Assembly: GCF_900636515.1 (NCBI RefSeq)
Contig: NZ_LR134287.1
Location: 1,178,001-1,242,000 of the forward strand
DNA length: 64,000 bases
Source: Neisseria animalis
GTDB taxonomy: Bacteria > Pseudomonadota > Gammaproteobacteria > Burkholderiales > Neisseriaceae
Direction: 5' to 3'
Under the pieces are notes generated by a model. The model made no database searches, had not been told where the DNA came from, and worked only from the letters and a program-made list of their open reading frames with translations. The position numbers and the translations under genes are program-made. Of the stretch, positions 7,277 to 27,231 are shown piece by piece. Numbering within the stretch: the stretch's first letter is position 1; every line of letters begins with the position of its first letter.

Positions 7277-9085
7277 ATGAAAGCAATCCGCAATATCGCC
7301 ATCATCGCCCACGTCGACCACGGCAAAACCACATTAGTAGACCAACTTTTACGCCAATCCGGCACCTTCCGCGACAACCAGCAGGTTGACGAGCGCGTGA
7401 TGGACAGCGGCGACATCGAAAAAGAGCGCGGCATTACCATTCTTGCCAAAAACACCGCCATCGAATACGAAGGCTACCACATCAACATCGTCGATACGCC
7501 GGGACACGCCGACTTCGGCGGCGAGGTAGAGCGCGTATTGGGCATGGTTGACTGCGTTGTCCTGCTGGTTGATGCCCAAGAAGGCCCGATGCCGCAAACC
7601 CGTTTCGTTACCAAAAAAGCACTGGCTTTGGGTTTGAAACCGATTGTGGTCATCAATAAAATCGACAAACCGAGCGCGCGTCCGAGCTGGGTAATCGACC
7701 AAACATTCGAACTGTTCGACAACCTGGGTGCAACCGATGAACAACTGGACTTCCCGATTGTGTACGCTTCCGGCTTGAGCGGTTTTGCCCGTTTGGAAGA
7801 AAACGGTACGGAAACCGATATGCGCGTTTTGTTTGAAACCATTTTGAAACATACGCCCGCTCCGAGCGGCAGTGCCGACGAAACCCTTCAGCTCCAAATT
7901 TCCCAACTTGACTATGACAACTATACCGGCCGCCTCGGTATCGGCCGCATCTTGAACGGCCGTATCCGCCCCGGCCAAACCGTTGCCGTGATGAACCACG
8001 AGCAGCAAGTGGCGCAAGGCCGCATCAACCAGCTTTTGGGTTTCAAAGGCTTGGAGCGCGTGCCTTTGGAAGAAGGCGAAGCCGGCGACATCGTGATTAT
8101 CTCCGGCATTGAAGACATCGGTATCGGCGTAACCATTACCGACAAAGACAACCCCAAAGGTTTGCCGATGCTGAGCGTGGACGAGCCGACGCTGACCATG
8201 GACTTCATGGTCAACACCAGCCCGCTGGCCGGTACCGAAGGCAAGTTTGTGACTTCGCGCCAAATCCGCGACCGCCTGAATAAAGAATTGCTGACCAACG
8301 TTGCCCTGCGCGTGGAAGACACCGAAGATGCCGACGTATTCCGCGTATCCGGCCGCGGCGAACTGCACCTGACCATTCTGCTGGAAAACATGCGCCGCGA
8401 AGGTTTTGAGCTGGCCGTTGCCAAACCGCGCGTGGTGTACCGCGAAATCAACGGTCAAAAATGCGAGCCGTATGAGAACCTGACTGTCGATGTGCCCGAC
8501 GACAACCAAGGCGCAGTGATGGAAGAACTCGGCCGCCGCCGTGGCGAATTGACCAATATGGAAAGCGACGGCAACGGCCGCACCCGTTTGGAATACCACA
8601 TTCCCGCACGCGGCCTGATCGGTTTCCAAGGCGAATTTATGACCATGACCCGCGGTACCGGCCTGATGAGCCACGTTTTCGACGATTACGCCCCGGTCAA
8701 ACCGGATATGCCCGGCCGCCACAACGGCGTATTGGTTTCCCAAGAACAAGGCGAAGCAGTGGCTTACGCATTGTGGAACTTGGAAGACCGCGGCCGCATG
8801 TTTGTATCGCCGGGCGACAAAATCTACGAAGGCATGATTATCGGTATTCACAGCCGCGACAATGATTTGGTGGTGAACCCGCTGAAAGGCAAAAAGCTCA
8901 CCAACGTACGCGCCAGCGGTACCGATGAAGCTGTGCGCCTGACCACGCCGATTAAGCTGACTTTGGAAGGCGCGGTAGAGTTTATCGATGATGATGAATT
9001 GGTAGAGATTACTCCGCAATCCATTCGTCTGCGTAAACGCTACCTGAGCGAGCTGGAACGCCGCCGCCACTTCAAGAAAGACTGA
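7277..9085 (+). CDS. typA: Ribosome-binding translational GTPase TypA/BipA
   Basis: EF-G-like GTPase that binds the ribosome and aids 50S assembly and stress or cold adaptation. It has 602 residues from [19 protein letters not shown]; the start at 7277 matches the family N-terminus. The G1 loop is HVDHGKTT (12-19), with [15 protein letters not shown] and NKID further along. Domain 2, the EF-G-like III and V domains and the TypA-specific C-terminus ([18 protein letters not shown]) are present. Its last codons and terminator region are repeated three more times immediately downstream, so transcripts face four successive hairpins. Confidence 0.96.
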
Positions 9086-9672: not shown

Positions 9673-10677
9673 CCAGCCTTGCAGATTGCGCTTCACTAAA
9701 TCTGCCAGAGCTTCAACCCATACGGGGCTGTCGTTCAGGCAGGGGATATAGTGGAACTGCGTACCGCCGGCTTCATGGAACTGCTCGCGTCCGGCCAGTG
9801 CGATTTCTTCCATGGTTTCCAAGCAGTCTGCCATAAATCCGGGGCAGAATACGTCCAGTTTTTCTACGCCTTTTTTCGGCAATTCGTCAAATAAGGCTTG
9901 TGTGCTCGGGCCTACCCATTTTGCTTTGCCAAATTGGCTTTGGAACGAGACGACATATTCGCTTTCAGAAAGCCCCAGCGCATCGGCCAGCAGTTTGGCG
10001 GTATGGCGGCATTCTTCAGGGTAGGGATCGCCGTCGTCGCTGCTTTTTTGCGGAATACCGTGGAAACTCAACATCAGTTTGTCACCGCGCCCGTGTTGCG
10101 CCCAATATGCTTCGATGTGTTGCTTCATGGCTCCGATGTAGCCTGCATCGTCGTAAAAACGTGCAATGGTTCGCAGCCCCATTTGGTTGCGCTGTTTCAG
10201 CAGTTGGGCAAATATTTTATCCAAAGCGGCTCCGGTGCTGGAGGCTGCATATTGGGGATAGAGCGGTACAACCAGCAGTCTGCCGACACCTTGTGCTTTC
10301 AAATCGGACAAGACATCTGCAATGCCGGGATTGCCGTACGTCATGGCATGGCGCACGATGATTTCGGGGAATTTGGCGGATAATGCCGCGGTTTGCCGTT
10401 CGGTATAAACGGCCAGCGGTGAGCCTTCGTCAAACCAGACTTTTTCGTAGCCGTGCGCCGATTTTTTCGGGCGCAGCGTCAGCACCAAGCCCCGCAATAC
10501 CGGCTGCCACAACCATTTCGGCAGTTCTACCACACGGTGGTCGGACAGAAAGTCGCGCAGATAGGGTTTGACTGCTTCGGCGGTCGGAGCATCGGGCGTG
10601 CCTAAGTTGAGCAGCAGAACGGCGGTTCGGTTTTGTTGGTTGTAGGAAAGGGGCGGTTCGGGCAGAAAGTATGACAT
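9667..10677 (-). CDS. hemH: Ferrochelatase
   Basis: Inserts Fe2+ into protoporphyrin IX as the last step of haem synthesis, at the inner face of the membrane. The protein is 336 residues. The N-terminus has AVLLLNLGTPDAP, the centre VPLYPQYAASSTGA, and the catalytic histidine is His206 in LSFHGIP. The C-terminal half has SFQSQFGKAKWVGPST and the acidic stretch ETMEEIALAGREQF. It converges on typA, and its stop codon lies inside the last unit of the tandem array. Confidence 0.96.
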   Translation of the reverse strand: MSYFLPEPPLSYNQQNRTAVLLLNLGTPDAPTAEAVKPYLRDFLSDHRVVELPKWLWQPVLRGLVLTLRPKKSAHGYEKVWFDEGSPLAVYTERQTAALSAKFPEIIVRHAMTYGNPGIADVLSDLKAQGVGRLLVVPLYPQYAASSTGAALDKIFAQLLKQRNQMGLRTIARFYDDAGYIGAMKQHIEAYWAQHGRGDKLMLSFHGIPQKSSDDGDPYPEECRHTAKLLADALGLSESEYVVSFQSQFGKAKWVGPSTQALFDELPKKGVEKLDVFCPGFMADCLETMEEIALAGREQFHEAGGTQFHYIPCLNDSPVWVEALADLVKRNLQGWD

Positions 10678-10778
10678 GACGGGGAATTTTGTTTGCTGAA
10701 AAGTTAACTGAGCTTATTGTAGCAATGAATGAGCCGTCTGGGTATGGCGGCAGGTATTTTTCAGACGGCATGATGTCC

Positions 10779-10979
10779 TCAATAGGCATCGGGAATGTGT
10801 TTGAAATACAGCATCACCAGATACCAAATCAGGGTTGCCGCCGCCGCGCCCAGCATGACCCACGCGCTGATTTGCATCACTTCGCGAAGGGCGCGTTTTT
10901 GCTTGCGGCTGAACAGGCGGTTGATAATCAGCGCGATAAAGGCAAACAATAAGAAAATTCGGAACAGGCGGCCTATCAT
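10779..10979 (-). CDS. Small two-helix membrane protein, function unknown
   Basis: 66 residues from the ATG at 10979 (MIGRLFRIFLLFAFIALIIN). Helices lie at about residues 4-22 and 41-60, separated by a very basic loop (RLFSRKQKRALREVMQ). The longer reading from 11012 begins inside a partial uptake motif and is less likely. I do not recognise a characterised family. It reads in the same direction as hemH, about 100 bases upstream, so the two might be co-transcribed. Confidence 0.65.
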   Translation of the reverse strand: MIGRLFRIFLLFAFIALIINRLFSRKQKRALREVMQISAWVMLGAAAATLIWYLVMLYFKHIPDAY

Positions 10980-11109
10980 GGGAAAGGTATCGGTATTGAT
11001 GCCGTCTGCCAAACAGGGCAGGCGGCGGGGTAAACAGGAAAACGCATTTTGCAGACGGCCTTTATCCTTATGCGGGCGGCAATGCCGTGCAAAACATATT
11101 TCGAACCGC

Positions 11110-22322: not shown

Positions 22323-23429
22323 TTAACCGTAACGGCGTTGGAAATCCGCCATAAAGTCGATTAAGGCTTCTACACCTTCCAAAGGCATGGCATTGTAAAT
22401 GCTGGCGCGCATGCCGCCGATGGATTTGTAGCCTTTTAGCAAACGCAGGCCGCACAGCTCCGCTTCTTGTATGAATTTTTTGTCCAAATCCGCGTTGGCA
22501 GTTTTGAAAATCACATTCATCTTCGAGCGCGCGCCGTCTGCAATTGGATTTTGGTAAAAACCGCCGCTGCCATCAATGGCTTGGTACAGCTTTTGCGCTT
22601 TCAACTGATTGACGGCTTCAATTTTTTTCACACCGCCTTGGGTTTGCAGCCAGCGGAATACCAAACCCGACATATAAATCGGATAAGTTGCGGGCGTGTT
22701 GTACATACCGTCTTTATCGATATGCGTTTGATAATTGAACACAGCAGGAATATTCTTAGGGCAGCGTGCCAGCAAATCTTCCCGAATAATCACCACCGTT
22801 ACGCCGGCCGGCCCGATGTTTTTCTGTGCGCCGGCATAAATCAGACCAAAATCCGCCACATTGATTTCGCGCGATAAAATCTCGCTCGACATATCGCAAA
22901 CCAGCGGCGGCATGCCGTCTGCAAGTTTCGGCATCGTTTGGTATTGTAAGCCGTGTACCGTTTCATTGCTGACAAAATGTACGAAAGCCGAATCTTTATC
23001 AATATCCCAACTCTCCACAGCAGGCAGATTGTAATAACCGAACTGCTCGCCGCCGTGTGCCGCCAGATGAATGCGGGCATCAGTCAGCAGCGGCATCTGC
23101 TCATATGCCAAACGGCTCCAGTTGCCCGTTACCACCGCATCCGCACGCTTGAAACCGTGCGCCAGATTCATGGCAACCATATTGAATTGGGTAGTCGCGC
23201 CGCCTTGTAAAAAAAGCACTTTATAGTTGTTAGGAATAGCCAGCAGTTGGCGCAAATCCTGTTTGGCATGATACAGAATGCTCATGAACATATCCGAACG
23301 GTGGCTCATCTCAACAACGGAAAAGCCAGTACCGTTGTAGTCCAGCATTTCTTGCTGTGCAGTACGCAATACGGATTCCGGCAATACGGCAGGACCGGCG
23401 GAGAAATTGTAAATCGGGCGGACAGACAT
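22323..23429 (-). CDS. serC: Phosphoserine aminotransferase
   Basis: PLP enzyme making phosphoserine from 3-phosphohydroxypyruvate (serine synthesis) and acting in PLP synthesis. 368 residues, class V aminotransferase. The start MSVRPIYNFSAGPAVLPESV is diagnostic. LQGGATTQFNMVAMNL (about 74-89), CDMSSEILSREINV and the cofactor lysine Lys203 in YAGAQKNIGPAGV follow. The end has RASIYNAMPLEGVEALIDFM. It reads in the same direction as the LysR gene upstream, separated by about 120 bases. Confidence 0.96.
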   Translation of the reverse strand: MSVRPIYNFSAGPAVLPESVLRTAQQEMLDYNGTGFSVVEMSHRSDMFMSILYHAKQDLRQLLAIPNNYKVLFLQGGATTQFNMVAMNLAHGFKRADAVVTGNWSRLAYEQMPLLTDARIHLAAHGGEQFGYYNLPAVESWDIDKDSAFVHFVSNETVHGLQYQTMPKLADGMPPLVCDMSSEILSREINVADFGLIYAGAQKNIGPAGVTVVIIREDLLARCPKNIPAVFNYQTHIDKDGMYNTPATYPIYMSGLVFRWLQTQGGVKKIEAVNQLKAQKLYQAIDGSGGFYQNPIADGARSKMNVIFKTANADLDKKFIQEAELCGLRLLKGYKSIGGMRASIYNAMPLEGVEALIDFMADFQRRYG

Positions 23430-23552: not shown

Positions 23553-24455
23553 TTAAATGCGGGTAAGGGGATTGGAAAGGACGGAAAAATCTGCAAACCA
23601 ACTTCTCAGGGTAGTTTTGATGTGTTCCAACGCAGCATTTTTAGAAGCCGGAATATGGTTGTGGCTGACTAAAAATATCCGCCGCCACGGTGTAGAGCCG
23701 TACAACGGTCGGCACATCAGCCCGTATTGCTGCATGAGCATTCGGCAGAGACTGGTGGGTACAAACATCCAGCCGTCGTGTTCTAACAGGGGAAGGGCGG
23801 TATTGAGGGAGTCGCAGCGGATGCCGCTGAGGCCGTCTGCAAAAATGCCTTGCCGCCACAAATGGTAATGCCAGCCCCATTCAATATAGATTTCCTGCCT
23901 ACCATCAAGCATTTCCGGAGTAAGAGGAGTTGAGGGAGGCGGAAGTGAGCGCCCTGCGACCCAAATGTCTTCTTTCAGCAATTCTTCAAGCTGTATATGG
24001 GTTTCTTTATGGGTAACGTCGGTAATCAGCCCTAAATCAAGTCTGCGGTTGGCCACTTGGCTGACAATTTCCCTGCTGTGTAAGTTGCATATATCGAGTT
24101 TGCAATAGCCGCTGCGGGCGATGGTTTGATACAGGGGAGGCAGAATGTGCAGATTCAGACTTTCAATAGCACCGATGTGTACGGTAACGTGGTTTTCTTC
24201 TTGTTTGAACTGTTTGATTTCTTCAGACAGGGTAAGCCAGTTGACGGCGATTTTCAGAAATTTCTCTCCCTGTACGGTCAGTCGGGCTTCTTTGCTGCCG
24301 GGTTCTCTGTGGATTAATACGCTGCCTAAAGCATCTTCCAATTGTTTGAGGCGGTAGCTGACGGTGGATTGGGTAATGTTGAGCTGTTCGGCCGCCCGGG
24401 TCAGGCTTTTGGTTACGGCGATGGCGATAAATGCTTCTAAAAAGGCGTGTTTCAC
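23553..24455 (-). CDS. LysR-type transcriptional regulator
   Basis: 300 residues. The N-terminal winged helix-turn-helix (AVTKSLTRAAEQLNITQSTV, about 13-32, then SYRLKQLEDALG) is followed by the LysR effector domain (VHIGAIESLNLHILPPLYQT near 90). It is divergent from the PLP enzyme and symporter genes, the usual geometry for a LysR protein controlling its neighbour, so it probably regulates that pair in response to their substrate. A T-N11-A palindrome lies in the shared promoter region. The coding sequence contains a CA-type uptake motif near 23830, suggesting long residence in this lineage. Confidence 0.9.
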   Translation of the reverse strand: MKHAFLEAFIAIAVTKSLTRAAEQLNITQSTVSYRLKQLEDALGSVLIHREPGSKEARLTVQGEKFLKIAVNWLTLSEEIKQFKQEENHVTVHIGAIESLNLHILPPLYQTIARSGYCKLDICNLHSREIVSQVANRRLDLGLITDVTHKETHIQLEELLKEDIWVAGRSLPPPSTPLTPEMLDGRQEIYIEWGWHYHLWRQGIFADGLSGIRCDSLNTALPLLEHDGWMFVPTSLCRMLMQQYGLMCRPLYGSTPWRRIFLVSHNHIPASKNAALEHIKTTLRSWFADFSVLSNPLTRI

Positions 24456-24480
24456 GGCATTTCCTCTATTGTCCGCAATT

Positions 24481-24495
24481 ATTCAAATTTTGAAT
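24481..24495. promoter_or_regulatory. Likely LysR operator
   Basis: ATTCAAA-T-TTTGAAT, a perfect 7-bp inverted repeat that contains a T-N11-A LysR box (24482-24494). It sits 26 bases before the LysR start and about 45 bases upstream of the -10 of the divergent PLP gene. Confidence 0.65.
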
Positions 24496-24540
24496 ATTCT
24501 ATATGTAAACTTTCCGTTTTTCCATTAAAAACCATACATC

Positions 24541-24569
24541 TATAATGAATTTAACCGCATCGGGCGGTT
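24541..24569 (+). promoter_or_regulatory. -10 element and leader hairpin of the PLP-enzyme operon
   Basis: TATAAT at 24541-24546 with no good -35, consistent with activator dependence. Just after it, AACCGC-ATCGG-GCGGTT (24553-24569) forms a small hairpin near the probable 5' end of the transcript. Confidence 0.5.
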
Positions 24570-24593
24570 TGTTTTCATATAGAGGAGATGATG

Positions 24594-25844
24594 ATGTTTA
24601 CACCGTCTTTATCGGCAGAAATCCGCAGCCGCTTTGCTTTTGTCGAGCATGATCCTGATTACGGATCCCGTTTGTTTTTCGATAATTCGGGCGGTTCACT
24701 GCGTTTGAAAGAAGCCGTCAGAGTAAAGGAAACAATAGACTTGCTTCCGGATTGCTCGGAAAGGCAGCACCGTAGAGCCGTGGATTTTCAGGAATGGATT
24801 GAACGGGGAACCCAAGATATTTTGCAAGTCATGTTTGGCACAAAAAGAGGCGCATTGATGGTGGAGCAGAGTGCTTCACAGGCGATGTTTCAGATTGTTG
24901 CCGCCATTATGGAACATATCGGTGGTGGTAATGCGGTTACAACCAATGTCGAACACCCGTCTGCTTATGATGCAGTCAAGTTTTATTGTCAGAAAAACGG
25001 TTGCGAATTCCGTGTTGCTCAGGTCGGGAGAGATGGTTTCGTTACCCCTGAGGCTGTAGCGGAGCAAGTAGATGGGCAAACGGTTTTGGTGAGCGTGATC
25101 GCTTCGTCTAATATTTCAGGAAACATTATGGATTTGGCCGGCATTATCCGTGCGGTCAAAGAAAAAAATCCGCAAGCTTATATCATTACGGATGCCGTAC
25201 AGCATATGCCGCATGGCACTTTAGATGTAGAAGCATTGGGATTGGACGCCGCAAATTTCGCACCGTATAAATTTTTTGGCAGCAGAGGTGTAGGATTTGC
25301 CTATCTTTCCCCCAGACTGGCGACACTGCCTCATCACAAACTGCTGGACAAACCTGCTGATTTTTGGATTTTAGGTACGCCCACCCCTGCGTTATTTGCT
25401 TCGTTTTCCGCAGTTATCGACTATGTGTGTTGGCTGGGAAAACAGTGCGGCGGTCATGGCGGACGGCGTGAACTGTATTTGGAGGGTATGCACGCAATCG
25501 AGCAACAGGAACGTTTTTTGCTGCACCGCTTATTGGAAGGAGGCGGGGAAGTTCCCGGCTTGCGCCACCAGCCCAAGGTAAAAGTGTATGCAGACAGTCC
25601 GGATTTATCCCGTAGGGATTTGATTGTTGCTATGGGGATTGACGGTTGGGATTTTGAAGCACTACGCCAAGCCTACGATCAAGCGGGTGTTGTGGTGTAT
25701 GAAAGGGTGAACAGCAGTATTTATTCCCGCCGTATTGTTGAAGCATTGGGGCTGACCGGTGCTTTGCGTGTTTCTCCCCTGCATTGCCATACGGCAGCGG
25801 ATATTGACCGTTTTTTAACCATTACGGCCGAATTGGCAAGCTAA
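24594..25844 (+). CDS. Class-V PLP-dependent enzyme, cysteine-desulfurase-like, substrate unknown
   Basis: 416 residues in the fold-type I, aminotransferase class V group that includes NifS/CsdA-like proteins. Three ATGs follow the AGAGGAG site; the third (24594) has the best spacing. Visible cofactor residues are Asp200 and His204 in TDAVQH and the Schiff-base lysine Lys226 in APYKFFGSRG. FFDNSGGS near 28 and VEHPSAYDA near 119 are typical of the group. I do not see the SGxxC loop that carries the catalytic cysteine of true desulfurases; the C-terminus reads RVSPLHCHTAADIDRFL. It may be a lyase or other elimination enzyme. It is followed after about 34 bases by a symporter gene, so the pair looks like uptake plus breakdown of one amino-acid-like compound. 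Confidence 0.8.
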   Translation: MFTPSLSAEIRSRFAFVEHDPDYGSRLFFDNSGGSLRLKEAVRVKETIDLLPDCSERQHRRAVDFQEWIERGTQDILQVMFGTKRGALMVEQSASQAMFQIVAAIMEHIGGGNAVTTNVEHPSAYDAVKFYCQKNGCEFRVAQVGRDGFVTPEAVAEQVDGQTVLVSVIASSNISGNIMDLAGIIRAVKEKNPQAYIITDAVQHMPHGTLDVEALGLDAANFAPYKFFGSRGVGFAYLSPRLATLPHHKLLDKPADFWILGTPTPALFASFSAVIDYVCWLGKQCGGHGGRRELYLEGMHAIEQQERFLLHRLLEGGGEVPGLRHQPKVKVYADSPDLSRRDLIVAMGIDGWDFEALRQAYDQAGVVVYERVNSSIYSRRIVEALGLTGALRVSPLHCHTAADIDRFLTITAELAS

Positions 25845-25878
25845 TTCTATAAAAATATCAAGAATAAAGGAGAAAATG

Positions 25879-27099
25879 ATGAAACAATTCAGTTTATCGA
25901 CCAAAGTTGCCATTGGTTTTGTCATCGGTATTGTGTTGGGTCTGATATTTAAAGAAGATATTCTCATCATTAAACCGATAGGAACGATTTTTCTTACGCT
26001 CATCAAAATGATTGTTGTGCCGCTGGTGTTTTTCTCCATCGCTTCAAGCGTTGCCGGTATCGACAATATCCAACGCTTACGGCGCATCGGTACCCAAACC
26101 TTATTGTATTATGTGCTGACTACCTTAATCGCAGGCTGTATCGGGTTGTTTGTTGCGCATCTGCTCAAACCCGGCGCAGGGATTGATATTGCCGCATTAC
26201 CTATATCTGCTCAAACAATGGAAAGTAAGGAAATTCCCGGTATCGGGCAGACGCTTGTCGGAATGTTTCCTGCCAATCCGTTTCAATCTTTGGTAGAAGG
26301 GAATTTGGTGCAGGTGATTGTGTTTTCTCTGTTTTTAGGAATTTCCGTTGTGTTGTTGGGAGAAAAAGCGCAGTTGGTCAAAAATCTGATGAATACCGGC
26401 ACGGAGGTAATGTATAAAATGACTTCTTTGGTCATGGCATTTTCTCCTTACGGGGTGGCCGCACTTATTGCCTGCTCTATTGGAGAGTACGGCATACAGA
26501 TTTTTGGTCCGCTCGCCCGTTTTATTTTGACCGATTATTTGGGGTTGCTTGCCGTAATCTTGTCGATGTATCTGCTGATGCTCAAGTTTATTGCCAAAGT
26601 GCCTGTGGGAATGTTTTTCAAGAAAATATTGCCGATTTGGGCGGTAACCGCCAGCACCACCAGCAGTTCCGGTACTTTGCCGGTAACAACGGAAATTGTT
26701 GAAAAGAAAATGGGCGTGCATAACGAGTTGGCGCAATTTACCCTGCCTGTAGGGGCGACTATGAATATGAACGGGGCGGTCGTGTATTATGCTGCTGCAG
26801 TTATTTTCGTTTCTCAAATTTACGGCGTGGAGTTGGATCTGACTTCGCAAATAATCCTGATTCTGTTAACTGCTTTAGTCTCCATCGGCTCGCCCGGCAT
26901 TCCCGGAGGAGGCATAGTGATGACGGTTATGCTGCTTTCAACCATGGGATTGCCGCTGGAAATTATGGGCTTGATTGCAGGCATGTACCGTATTCTCGAT
27001 ATGGGGCATACTACCTTAAATGTAACCGGCGATGTGGTCAGCACGCTGTGTATTGCCCGTAAAGAAAACATGCTGGATCAGGAAATATTCAAAAGCTGA
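25879..27099 (+). CDS. DAACS-family sodium- or proton-coupled symporter with altered substrate site
   Basis: 406 residues, inner membrane, of the glutamate/aspartate/dicarboxylate transporter family. The second ATG (25879) is better placed behind AAAGGAG. The hairpin loops HP1 (TASTTSSSGTLP, about 258-268) and HP2 (SIGSPGIPGGG, 335-345) are clear. The usual NMDGT is NMNGA (296-300). The last helix reads LDMGHTTLNVTGD, with His377 where the aspartate transporter GltPh has Arg397, the residue binding the acidic side chain. A substrate other than Asp or Glu is therefore likely. Its partner is the PLP enzyme just upstream. Confidence 0.88.
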   Translation: MKQFSLSTKVAIGFVIGIVLGLIFKEDILIIKPIGTIFLTLIKMIVVPLVFFSIASSVAGIDNIQRLRRIGTQTLLYYVLTTLIAGCIGLFVAHLLKPGAGIDIAALPISAQTMESKEIPGIGQTLVGMFPANPFQSLVEGNLVQVIVFSLFLGISVVLLGEKAQLVKNLMNTGTEVMYKMTSLVMAFSPYGVAALIACSIGEYGIQIFGPLARFILTDYLGLLAVILSMYLLMLKFIAKVPVGMFFKKILPIWAVTASTTSSSGTLPVTTEIVEKKMGVHNELAQFTLPVGATMNMNGAVVYYAAAVIFVSQIYGVELDLTSQIILILLTALVSIGSPGIPGGGIVMTVMLLSTMGLPLEIMGLIAGMYRILDMGHTTLNVTGDVVSTLCIARKENMLDQEIFKS

Positions 27100-27186: not shown

Positions 27187-27231
27187 TAAAAAGGCCGTCT
27201 GCAAAATATGGTTTTTGCAGACGGCCTTTTT
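27187..27231 (+). terminator. Uptake-motif terminator after the symporter gene
   Basis: AAAAAGGCCGTCTGCAAAA pairs with TTTTGCAGACGGCCTTTTT. It also serves the convergent 42-residue gene. Confidence 0.85.

Follow-up and report, generated by a model that had tools for sequence, protein, structure and literature searches.

Gene organization of the locus

The window analyzed in this work is a 64-kb (64,000-nucleotide) stretch of the 2.24 Mb single-contig genome of Neisseria animalis. It carries a three-gene unit which, judging by its sequence, is probably a LysR-controlled system for the uptake and cleavage of an L-amino acid other than aspartate or glutamate. The gene of a LysR-type regulator (23553–24455, minus strand, 300 amino acids) is divergent from the gene of a class-V pyridoxal 5′-phosphate (PLP) enzyme, referred to below as ENZ (24588–25844, plus strand, 418 amino acids, or 416 if the third ATG, at 24594, is used). 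ENZ is followed on the same strand by the gene of a DAACS (SDF) symporter (25876–27099, 407 amino acids, or 406 from the second ATG at 25879). A preliminary description of this DNA had given the same arrangement with a 34-base gap between the latter two genes; this distance holds for the second symporter ATG, while the gap to the first one is 31 bases. The residue numbers used in that description (Lys226 and Asp200 of ENZ, His377 and NMNGA 296–300 of the symporter) fit the shorter starts, i.e., proteins of 416 and 406 amino acids, and are retained here.

The substrate pocket of the symporter

The symporter matched PF00375 with 403.4 bits (cut-off 27.9) over residues 7–395, a full-length SDF domain, and its AlphaFold model had a predicted local distance difference test score (pLDDT) of 78.2. 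The closest solved structure was 9bgz, an entry named "Aspartate transporter" (392.5 bits, full-length alignment). In PMC12668577, Asp366/Arg369 belong to the numbering of the reconstructed ancestor AncInt, and since the Asp366/Arg369 numbers of 9bgz match it, we take 9bgz to be AncInt. According to the same paper, the aspartate side chain is bound mainly by Arg397 in these transporters, with Thr314 as a further substrate ligand, while the amino group is held by Asp394 and the main-chain carboxylate by Asn401. Arg397 and Asp394 together determine the selectivity against neutral amino acids and against dicarboxylates.

In both HMMER and MAFFT alignments, His377 (27007–27009, plus strand) was aligned with the equivalent of GltPh Arg397; the preliminary description had equated these residues as well. 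The motif NMNGA (26764–26778, plus strand), which is the equivalent of GltPh NMDGT, places Ala300 at the position of Thr314 and Asn at the position of Asp312, in both alignments as well. The equivalents of Asp394 and Asn401 are retained. Of the residues expected of a GltPh-type acidic amino acid transporter, Arg397 and Thr314 are therefore absent, and Asp394 and Asn401 are present. As read from these residues, the pocket is one that still expects an α-amino acid, without an acidic side chain, which agrees with the earlier proposal that it is not of the aspartate/glutamate type. The change of Asp312 to Asn might alter sodium coupling.

NMNGA was present in all 120 nearest symporter relatives listed, and 116 of them had His at the 397 position (one had Asn, and in three the search pattern found no match). 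NMD was found in a His-type symporter that is less closely related (L113/L119, 57% identity). One close relative (L168/L170), whose residue at the 397 position is Thr and whose motif is NMNGG, may be a sister carrier that transports a different substrate. At L036:8293–10997, the symporter frame is split (8293–8694 and 10149–10997) with another open reading frame (ORF) in between, as if interrupted.

Conservation of the enzyme–symporter pair

Searches that started from the symporter covered 773 genomes: 83 of Neisseriaceae, 299 from the order of Bacillus renqingensis and 391 of Clostridia, with close symporters defined by E-values of ≤1e-70, ≤1e-120 and ≤1e-110, respectively. Eight close symporters were retrieved, seven of the His type and one of the Thr type. 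All seven His-type symporters, found independently of ENZ, adjoin ENZ; the sole Thr-type symporter has no ENZ beside it. In Neisseriaceae, a close symporter was present in 4 of the 83 genomes, and ENZ orthologues (56–100% identity) were detected in the same four, all adjacent to the symporter; 74 other genomes gave only low-identity ENZ matches. The order of Bacillus renqingensis yielded two genomes with a close symporter and five with ENZ (E ≤1e-100), and both symporters adjoin ENZ. Two of the remaining three ENZ genes (L116 and L117) lie beside a gene read as LysR and a further symporter, and the third (L114) has neither LysR nor symporter within its 4.2 kb locus. Close symporters were found in two Clostridia genomes. 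One of them (L167) is of the His type and is located directly 3′ of ENZ; the other, the Thr-type symporter of L170, follows a gene read as dihydrodipicolinate-synthase-like, and no ENZ was found within 13 kb of it. The pair, for which the preliminary description had called for a gene-neighborhood check, is adjacent in Neisseriaceae, Bacillales and Clostridia.

A second set of loci was collected starting from the enzyme, by a scan of genome contigs. It confirmed 307 relatives, of which the best 80 were combined with three Neisseriaceae loci and the window (L002) to give 84 loci. The pairs L003/L032 and L004/L042 each represent a single locus or two identical sequences, so the independence of the 84 loci is overstated by these two duplicates; in addition, L115 repeats L035. 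A symporter ORF was present somewhere in the fetched stretch in 31 of the 84 loci (33 ORFs, two of them fragments without the site). At the 397 position, the 31 ORFs had His in 18 cases, Leu in 7, Arg in 4 and Ala in 2.

The class-V PLP enzyme

ENZ matched PF00266 with 101.5 bits (gathering score 21.5), which places it in the class V superfamily. Its AlphaFold model (pLDDT 85.6) has a SufS-like fold; absence of a family from the list of fold matches does not exclude that family. The PLP lysine, Lys226, is invariant across a 21-sequence ENZ alignment and is preceded by Tyr225 and not by His (25266–25271, plus strand, numbering of the 416-residue protein). Among the 111 loci read of 115 submitted, Tyr preceded the PLP lysine in all 89 with at least 40% identity. 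The alignment also showed that the PLP-stacking His is retained. No ENZ cysteine aligned with the catalytic loop of IscS or SufS and no desulfurase cut-off was reached, which bears out the earlier statement that the cysteine desulfurase loop is missing.

Among the matches listed, no NCBIfam cut-off was reached by LysR, ENZ or the symporter. The best ENZ match was TIGR01976 (118.4 bits against a cut-off of 352.35, most of the protein covered). The SufS model scored 80.8 bits (cut-off 475), other desulfurases scored lower, and the SclA model reached 31 bits (cut-off 525). Kynureninase (TIGR01814) was not among the 16 NCBIfam families that matched ENZ at an E-value of 0.001, and was matched by 1 of 21 ENZ relatives (5.1e-8). 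When the ENZ family profile was compared with solved structures, the top near-full-length match was Fgm3, with 77 bits; the next was 1t3i, with 67.6 bits. The Tyr–Lys pair is found in Fgm3 and in two kynureninases scoring above the family cut-off; a literature search for the published Tyr/Lys numbering of kynureninase gave nothing relevant. The residues expected of an Fgm3-type lyase, a Tyr before the PLP lysine and a stacking His, are present in ENZ, and they are not diagnostic. A sequence match to UstD covered only the C-terminal half of ENZ (E = 1.1).

Two assignments of ENZ were considered and rejected. Its filing as a cysteine desulfurase/selenocysteine lyase was dropped in view of the lack of the catalytic cysteine, the Tyr–Lys pair and the scores under the cut-offs. 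An anti-phage role suggested by DndA and SspA matches of ~79 bits was also dropped, as these matches reflect the same desulfurase homology.

The shared promoter and uptake sequences

The regulator matched PF00126 (66 bits) and PF03466 (51.5 bits), each above the Pfam cut-off, and thus has both the N-terminal helix-turn-helix and the substrate-binding domain of LysR-type proteins. The perfect palindrome noticed earlier in the shared promoter, ATTCAAA-T-TTTGAAT with a T-N11-A core, is there and extends to 17 bases (TATTCAAATTTTGAATA, 24480–24496); it is a candidate LysR operator. Shuffling the 132-base intergenic stretch 2000 times gave an equally good palindrome (perfect, arms of at least 7 bases, 1-base center) in 30 cases, and the whole window holds eight palindromes of this kind. 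At the equivalent place of the Bergeriella denitrificans promoter (L032), ATTCA-N5-TGAAT is kept, likewise with T-N11-A.

The prevailing uptake 12-mer of the window is AGGCCGTCTGCA, with 41 copies; it is commoner than AGGCCGTCTGAA (13 copies), with C instead of the usual A close to the motif end. One copy of the uptake motif lies in the LysR gene (23830), and scanning of both plus-strand genes revealed none in either, as had been reported in the preliminary description. The argument for later acquisition that was built on this absence carries little weight, because the 10-mer GCCGTCTGCA, with 64 copies per 64 kb, is expected only ~2.5 times in the 2.5 kb concerned (Poisson probability of zero, ~0.08). 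Moreover, an inverted pair of motif copies is located directly 3′ of the symporter gene, at 27192 and 27216. This pair and the T run that follows it, together spanning 27190–27231, may form a terminator-like end of the unit.

Distribution and origin

Bergeriella denitrificans (Neisseriaceae) is the nearest named relative for both ENZ and the symporter, its ENZ being 83% identical to that of the window. The nearest ENZ relatives outside Neisseriaceae belong to Bacillota (Bacillus and Brevibacillus, ~65% identity). In a midpoint-rooted ENZ tree of 28 rows, the window and Bergeriella fell within a 15-row clade (support 95/89) together with Bacillaceae and three rows of another Neisseriaceae genus, two of which are identical; the internal order of this clade is weakly supported. 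The GC content is 0.487 for the ENZ gene and 0.452 for the symporter gene, compared to 0.517 for the window. The patchy distribution (4 of 83 Neisseriaceae genomes), the tree and the reduced GC content of both genes fit acquisition, and horizontal transfer of the unit is, on these sequence features, likely. This is the origin proposed earlier, here on other grounds.

The serC gene (22323–23429 of the window) adjoins the unit. Matches to serC were found in 45 genomes and 30 loci were read (L123–L152). Of these, only the window and G017 have LysR and ENZ beside serC. In the remaining 28 Neisseria loci, neither lies within ~1.5 kb and serC has other neighbors, so the chromosome has been rearranged around serC.

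Genes adjoining ENZ in other genomes

Gene calls in the 84 loci were mechanical (the ENZ ORF was lost in 10 of them; eight GC-rich loci were re-called, and the counts were left unchanged), and the family of each neighbor cluster was taken from one representative. In Shouchella clausii (L033), the gene next after the symporter codes for alanine dehydrogenase (594 bits, cut-off 391.85), and a sodium:alanine-type symporter cluster is located near ENZ in four loci. A PLP enzyme of the PRK06207 type is present in five (L034, L072, L078, L080 and L088). Its best named relative, matched under the cut-off, is GntC, a γ-hydroxy-arginine cyclodehydratase. A RidA-like protein also occurs in five loci (L034, L072, L080, L084 and L088).

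LamB/YcsF (PxpA-like, cluster c3) was detected in 13 of the 84 loci, ten with a Lachnospiraceae-type arrangement and three from Oceanobacillus. The Lachnospiraceae-type order, opposite to ENZ, is LysR, CT_C_D, CT_A_B, 2-hydroxyacid dehydrogenase and LamB/YcsF, often with a Leu-type symporter, certain genes being missing in certain loci. CT_A_B and CT_C_D were each found in 10 loci and 2-hydroxyacid dehydrogenase in 13. A glycerate kinase cluster is present in five loci, directly 3′ of ENZ in L040 and L085. Regulators of the RpiR type occur in nine loci and of the AraC type in 12, in nine of the latter together with a 375-residue protein (cluster c6). This protein (L037:5840–6967 and 11 other gut loci, i.e., 12 of 84) has no Pfam or NCBIfam match; by eye, its sequence appears to contain Asp-box-like β-propeller repeats.

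Proposed function and alternatives

Gene order, pairing, pocket residues, the missing desulfurase cysteine and the Tyr–Lys pair were computed; induction, uptake, reaction type and the γ-substituted class of substrate are inferred. The three genes would constitute one catabolic cassette. The LysR protein would bind the palindrome between the divergent genes and, in response to an effector (the substrate or a product), switch on the ENZ–symporter unit. The symporter would import an L-α-amino acid without a side-chain carboxylate, most likely γ-hydroxylated or otherwise γ-substituted, which would be bound on Lys226 of ENZ as a PLP aldimine. ENZ would then split the side chain, most likely between Cβ and Cγ in a retro-aldol or kynureninase-like reaction, to give L-alanine and an aldehyde or acid. 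Alanine as a product is supported by the alanine dehydrogenase of S. clausii and the alanine-type symporter near four loci, a γ-substituted substrate by the GntC-like and RidA-like partners, and the lyase chemistry by the retro-aldol activity of Fgm3, the top profile match, and the shared Tyr–Lys. We tentatively favor this LysR-controlled uptake of a non-acidic, probably γ-substituted L-amino acid, with release of alanine by ENZ. A broader version, in which a His/Ala DAACS subfamily co-evolved with an undescribed bacterial PLP C–C lyase into a mobile route splitting γ-hydroxylated amino acids into alanine and aldehyde, we regard as unlikely.

Several observations count against the proposed function. 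Alanine dehydrogenase stands beside the unit in one locus only, and the glycerate kinase, 2-hydroxyacid dehydrogenase and 5-oxoprolinase-like genes are poorly explained by a simple alanine-releasing lyase. The TIGR01976-like protein L006 shares the Tyr–Lys pair, which is therefore not diagnostic. Finally, with four Arg-type symporter ORFs (one, in L072, on the opposite strand), seven of the Leu type and two of the Ala type, the wider family has no one common pocket, and it has probably diversified in substrate.

The glycerate genes would be accounted for if ENZ were an aminotransferase acting on a serine-like neutral amino acid brought in by a serine-type carrier, with pyruvate or glyoxylate as the acceptor; hydroxypyruvate would be converted to glycerate and phosphorylated, and alanine would be a co-product, which the L033 dehydrogenase would recycle. 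L062 combines ENZ, symporter, 2-hydroxyacid dehydrogenase, pyruvate kinase and glycerate kinase, L084 and L088 carry genes resembling threonine/serine ammonia-lyases, and 3 to 4 loci have ThrE-like exporters. However, the glycerate genes belong to the other half of the ENZ tree (an 11-row clade outside that of the window), neither hydroxypyruvate reductase nor glycerate kinase lies beside the window cassette, and the relatives of ENZ by fold and sequence are lyases and desulfurases. We consider transamination the main rival, though somewhat unlikely. The LamB/YcsF, CT_A_B and CT_C_D genes, which mostly have a LysR gene (c2) between them and ENZ, suggest another route, in which 5-oxoprolinase-like enzymes would open a lactam such as 4-hydroxy-5-oxoproline and ENZ would form alanine and glyoxylate, the latter being reduced by the hydroxyacid dehydrogenase. 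The dehydrogenase representative does score 208.7 bits against glyoxylate reductase, though under the cut-off. Yet none of these genes adjoins the window cassette, the families come from single cluster representatives, and a glutamate-like substrate is ill-suited to the His/Ala pocket, which makes the lactam route quite improbable.

Aspartate itself would be the substrate if ENZ were a β-decarboxylase or a decarboxylative aldolase like UstD and aspartate were still carried by the symporter. With both residues for the aspartate side chain replaced in the symporter clade of the window, and the UstD match being as slight as described above, we give this very little probability. The same low probability applies to a desulfurase-like lyase releasing alanine from a sulfur or selenium amino acid: cysteine desulfurases and selenocysteine lyases make up the majority of ENZ sequence and fold matches, but ENZ has no catalytic cysteine, has Tyr for His before the lysine and stays far below the SclA cut-off, and no sulfur or selenium gene was recognized among the neighbor clusters assigned.

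The specificity of DAACS carriers is a model problem of membrane transport, and here a conserved clade has both side-chain-carboxylate residues replaced. Since all seven His-type symporters of the symporter-first searches adjoin the same PLP enzyme, carrier specificity and ENZ function can be tested jointly, each limiting the other. If C–C cleavage with alanine release is correct, it would provide a function for a group of proteins now named "aminotransferase class V-fold" or "cysteine desulfurase / selenocysteine lyase". No description of a LysR/class-V/DAACS unit was found in the open-access literature, subscription journals being mostly outside the search. Nor was a paper found that links canavanine to the unit through the GntC-like partner, and the available part of PMC10018355 names no RidA or transporter.

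Comparison with known systems

SclA, a selenocysteine lyase of class V, has a DAACS carrier as its partner. In a small sample, none of seven genomes gave a match above the SclA cut-off and an SDF-like gene (22.7% identity) lay by one of six loci; no paper on an SclA–carrier pairing was found in the open-access literature. Unlike SufS, IscS and other cysteine desulfurases, ENZ has no catalytic cysteine, and Tyr replaces His before its lysine. TIGR01976 (VC1184), a cysteine desulfurase-like family without known function, is the best NCBIfam match of ENZ, yet under the cut-off. Kynureninase (TIGR01814) shares with ENZ membership in class V and the Tyr–Lys pair, but its model is unmatched by ENZ, and the aligned kynureninases have Phe where ENZ has the stacking His.

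Fgm3 (PDB 9x4u) performs, according to PMC10367076, retro-aldol cleavage of γ-hydroxy-arginine. It matches the ENZ profile over nearly its full length and has Tyr before the PLP lysine, as does ENZ; a PLP-stacking His is given for Fgm3 in the same paper and is aligned in ENZ. Fgm3 differs in being fungal and biosynthetic and in its low identity to ENZ. On the transport side, AncInt and GltPh (PDB 9bgz and 1xfh) have in common with the window symporter the PF00375 fold family, the Asp for the amino group and the Asn for the main-chain carboxylate. The window protein differs from them at the positions of Arg397 (His), Thr314 (Ala) and Asp312 (Asn) and, unlike AncInt and GltPh, it is paired with a PLP enzyme.

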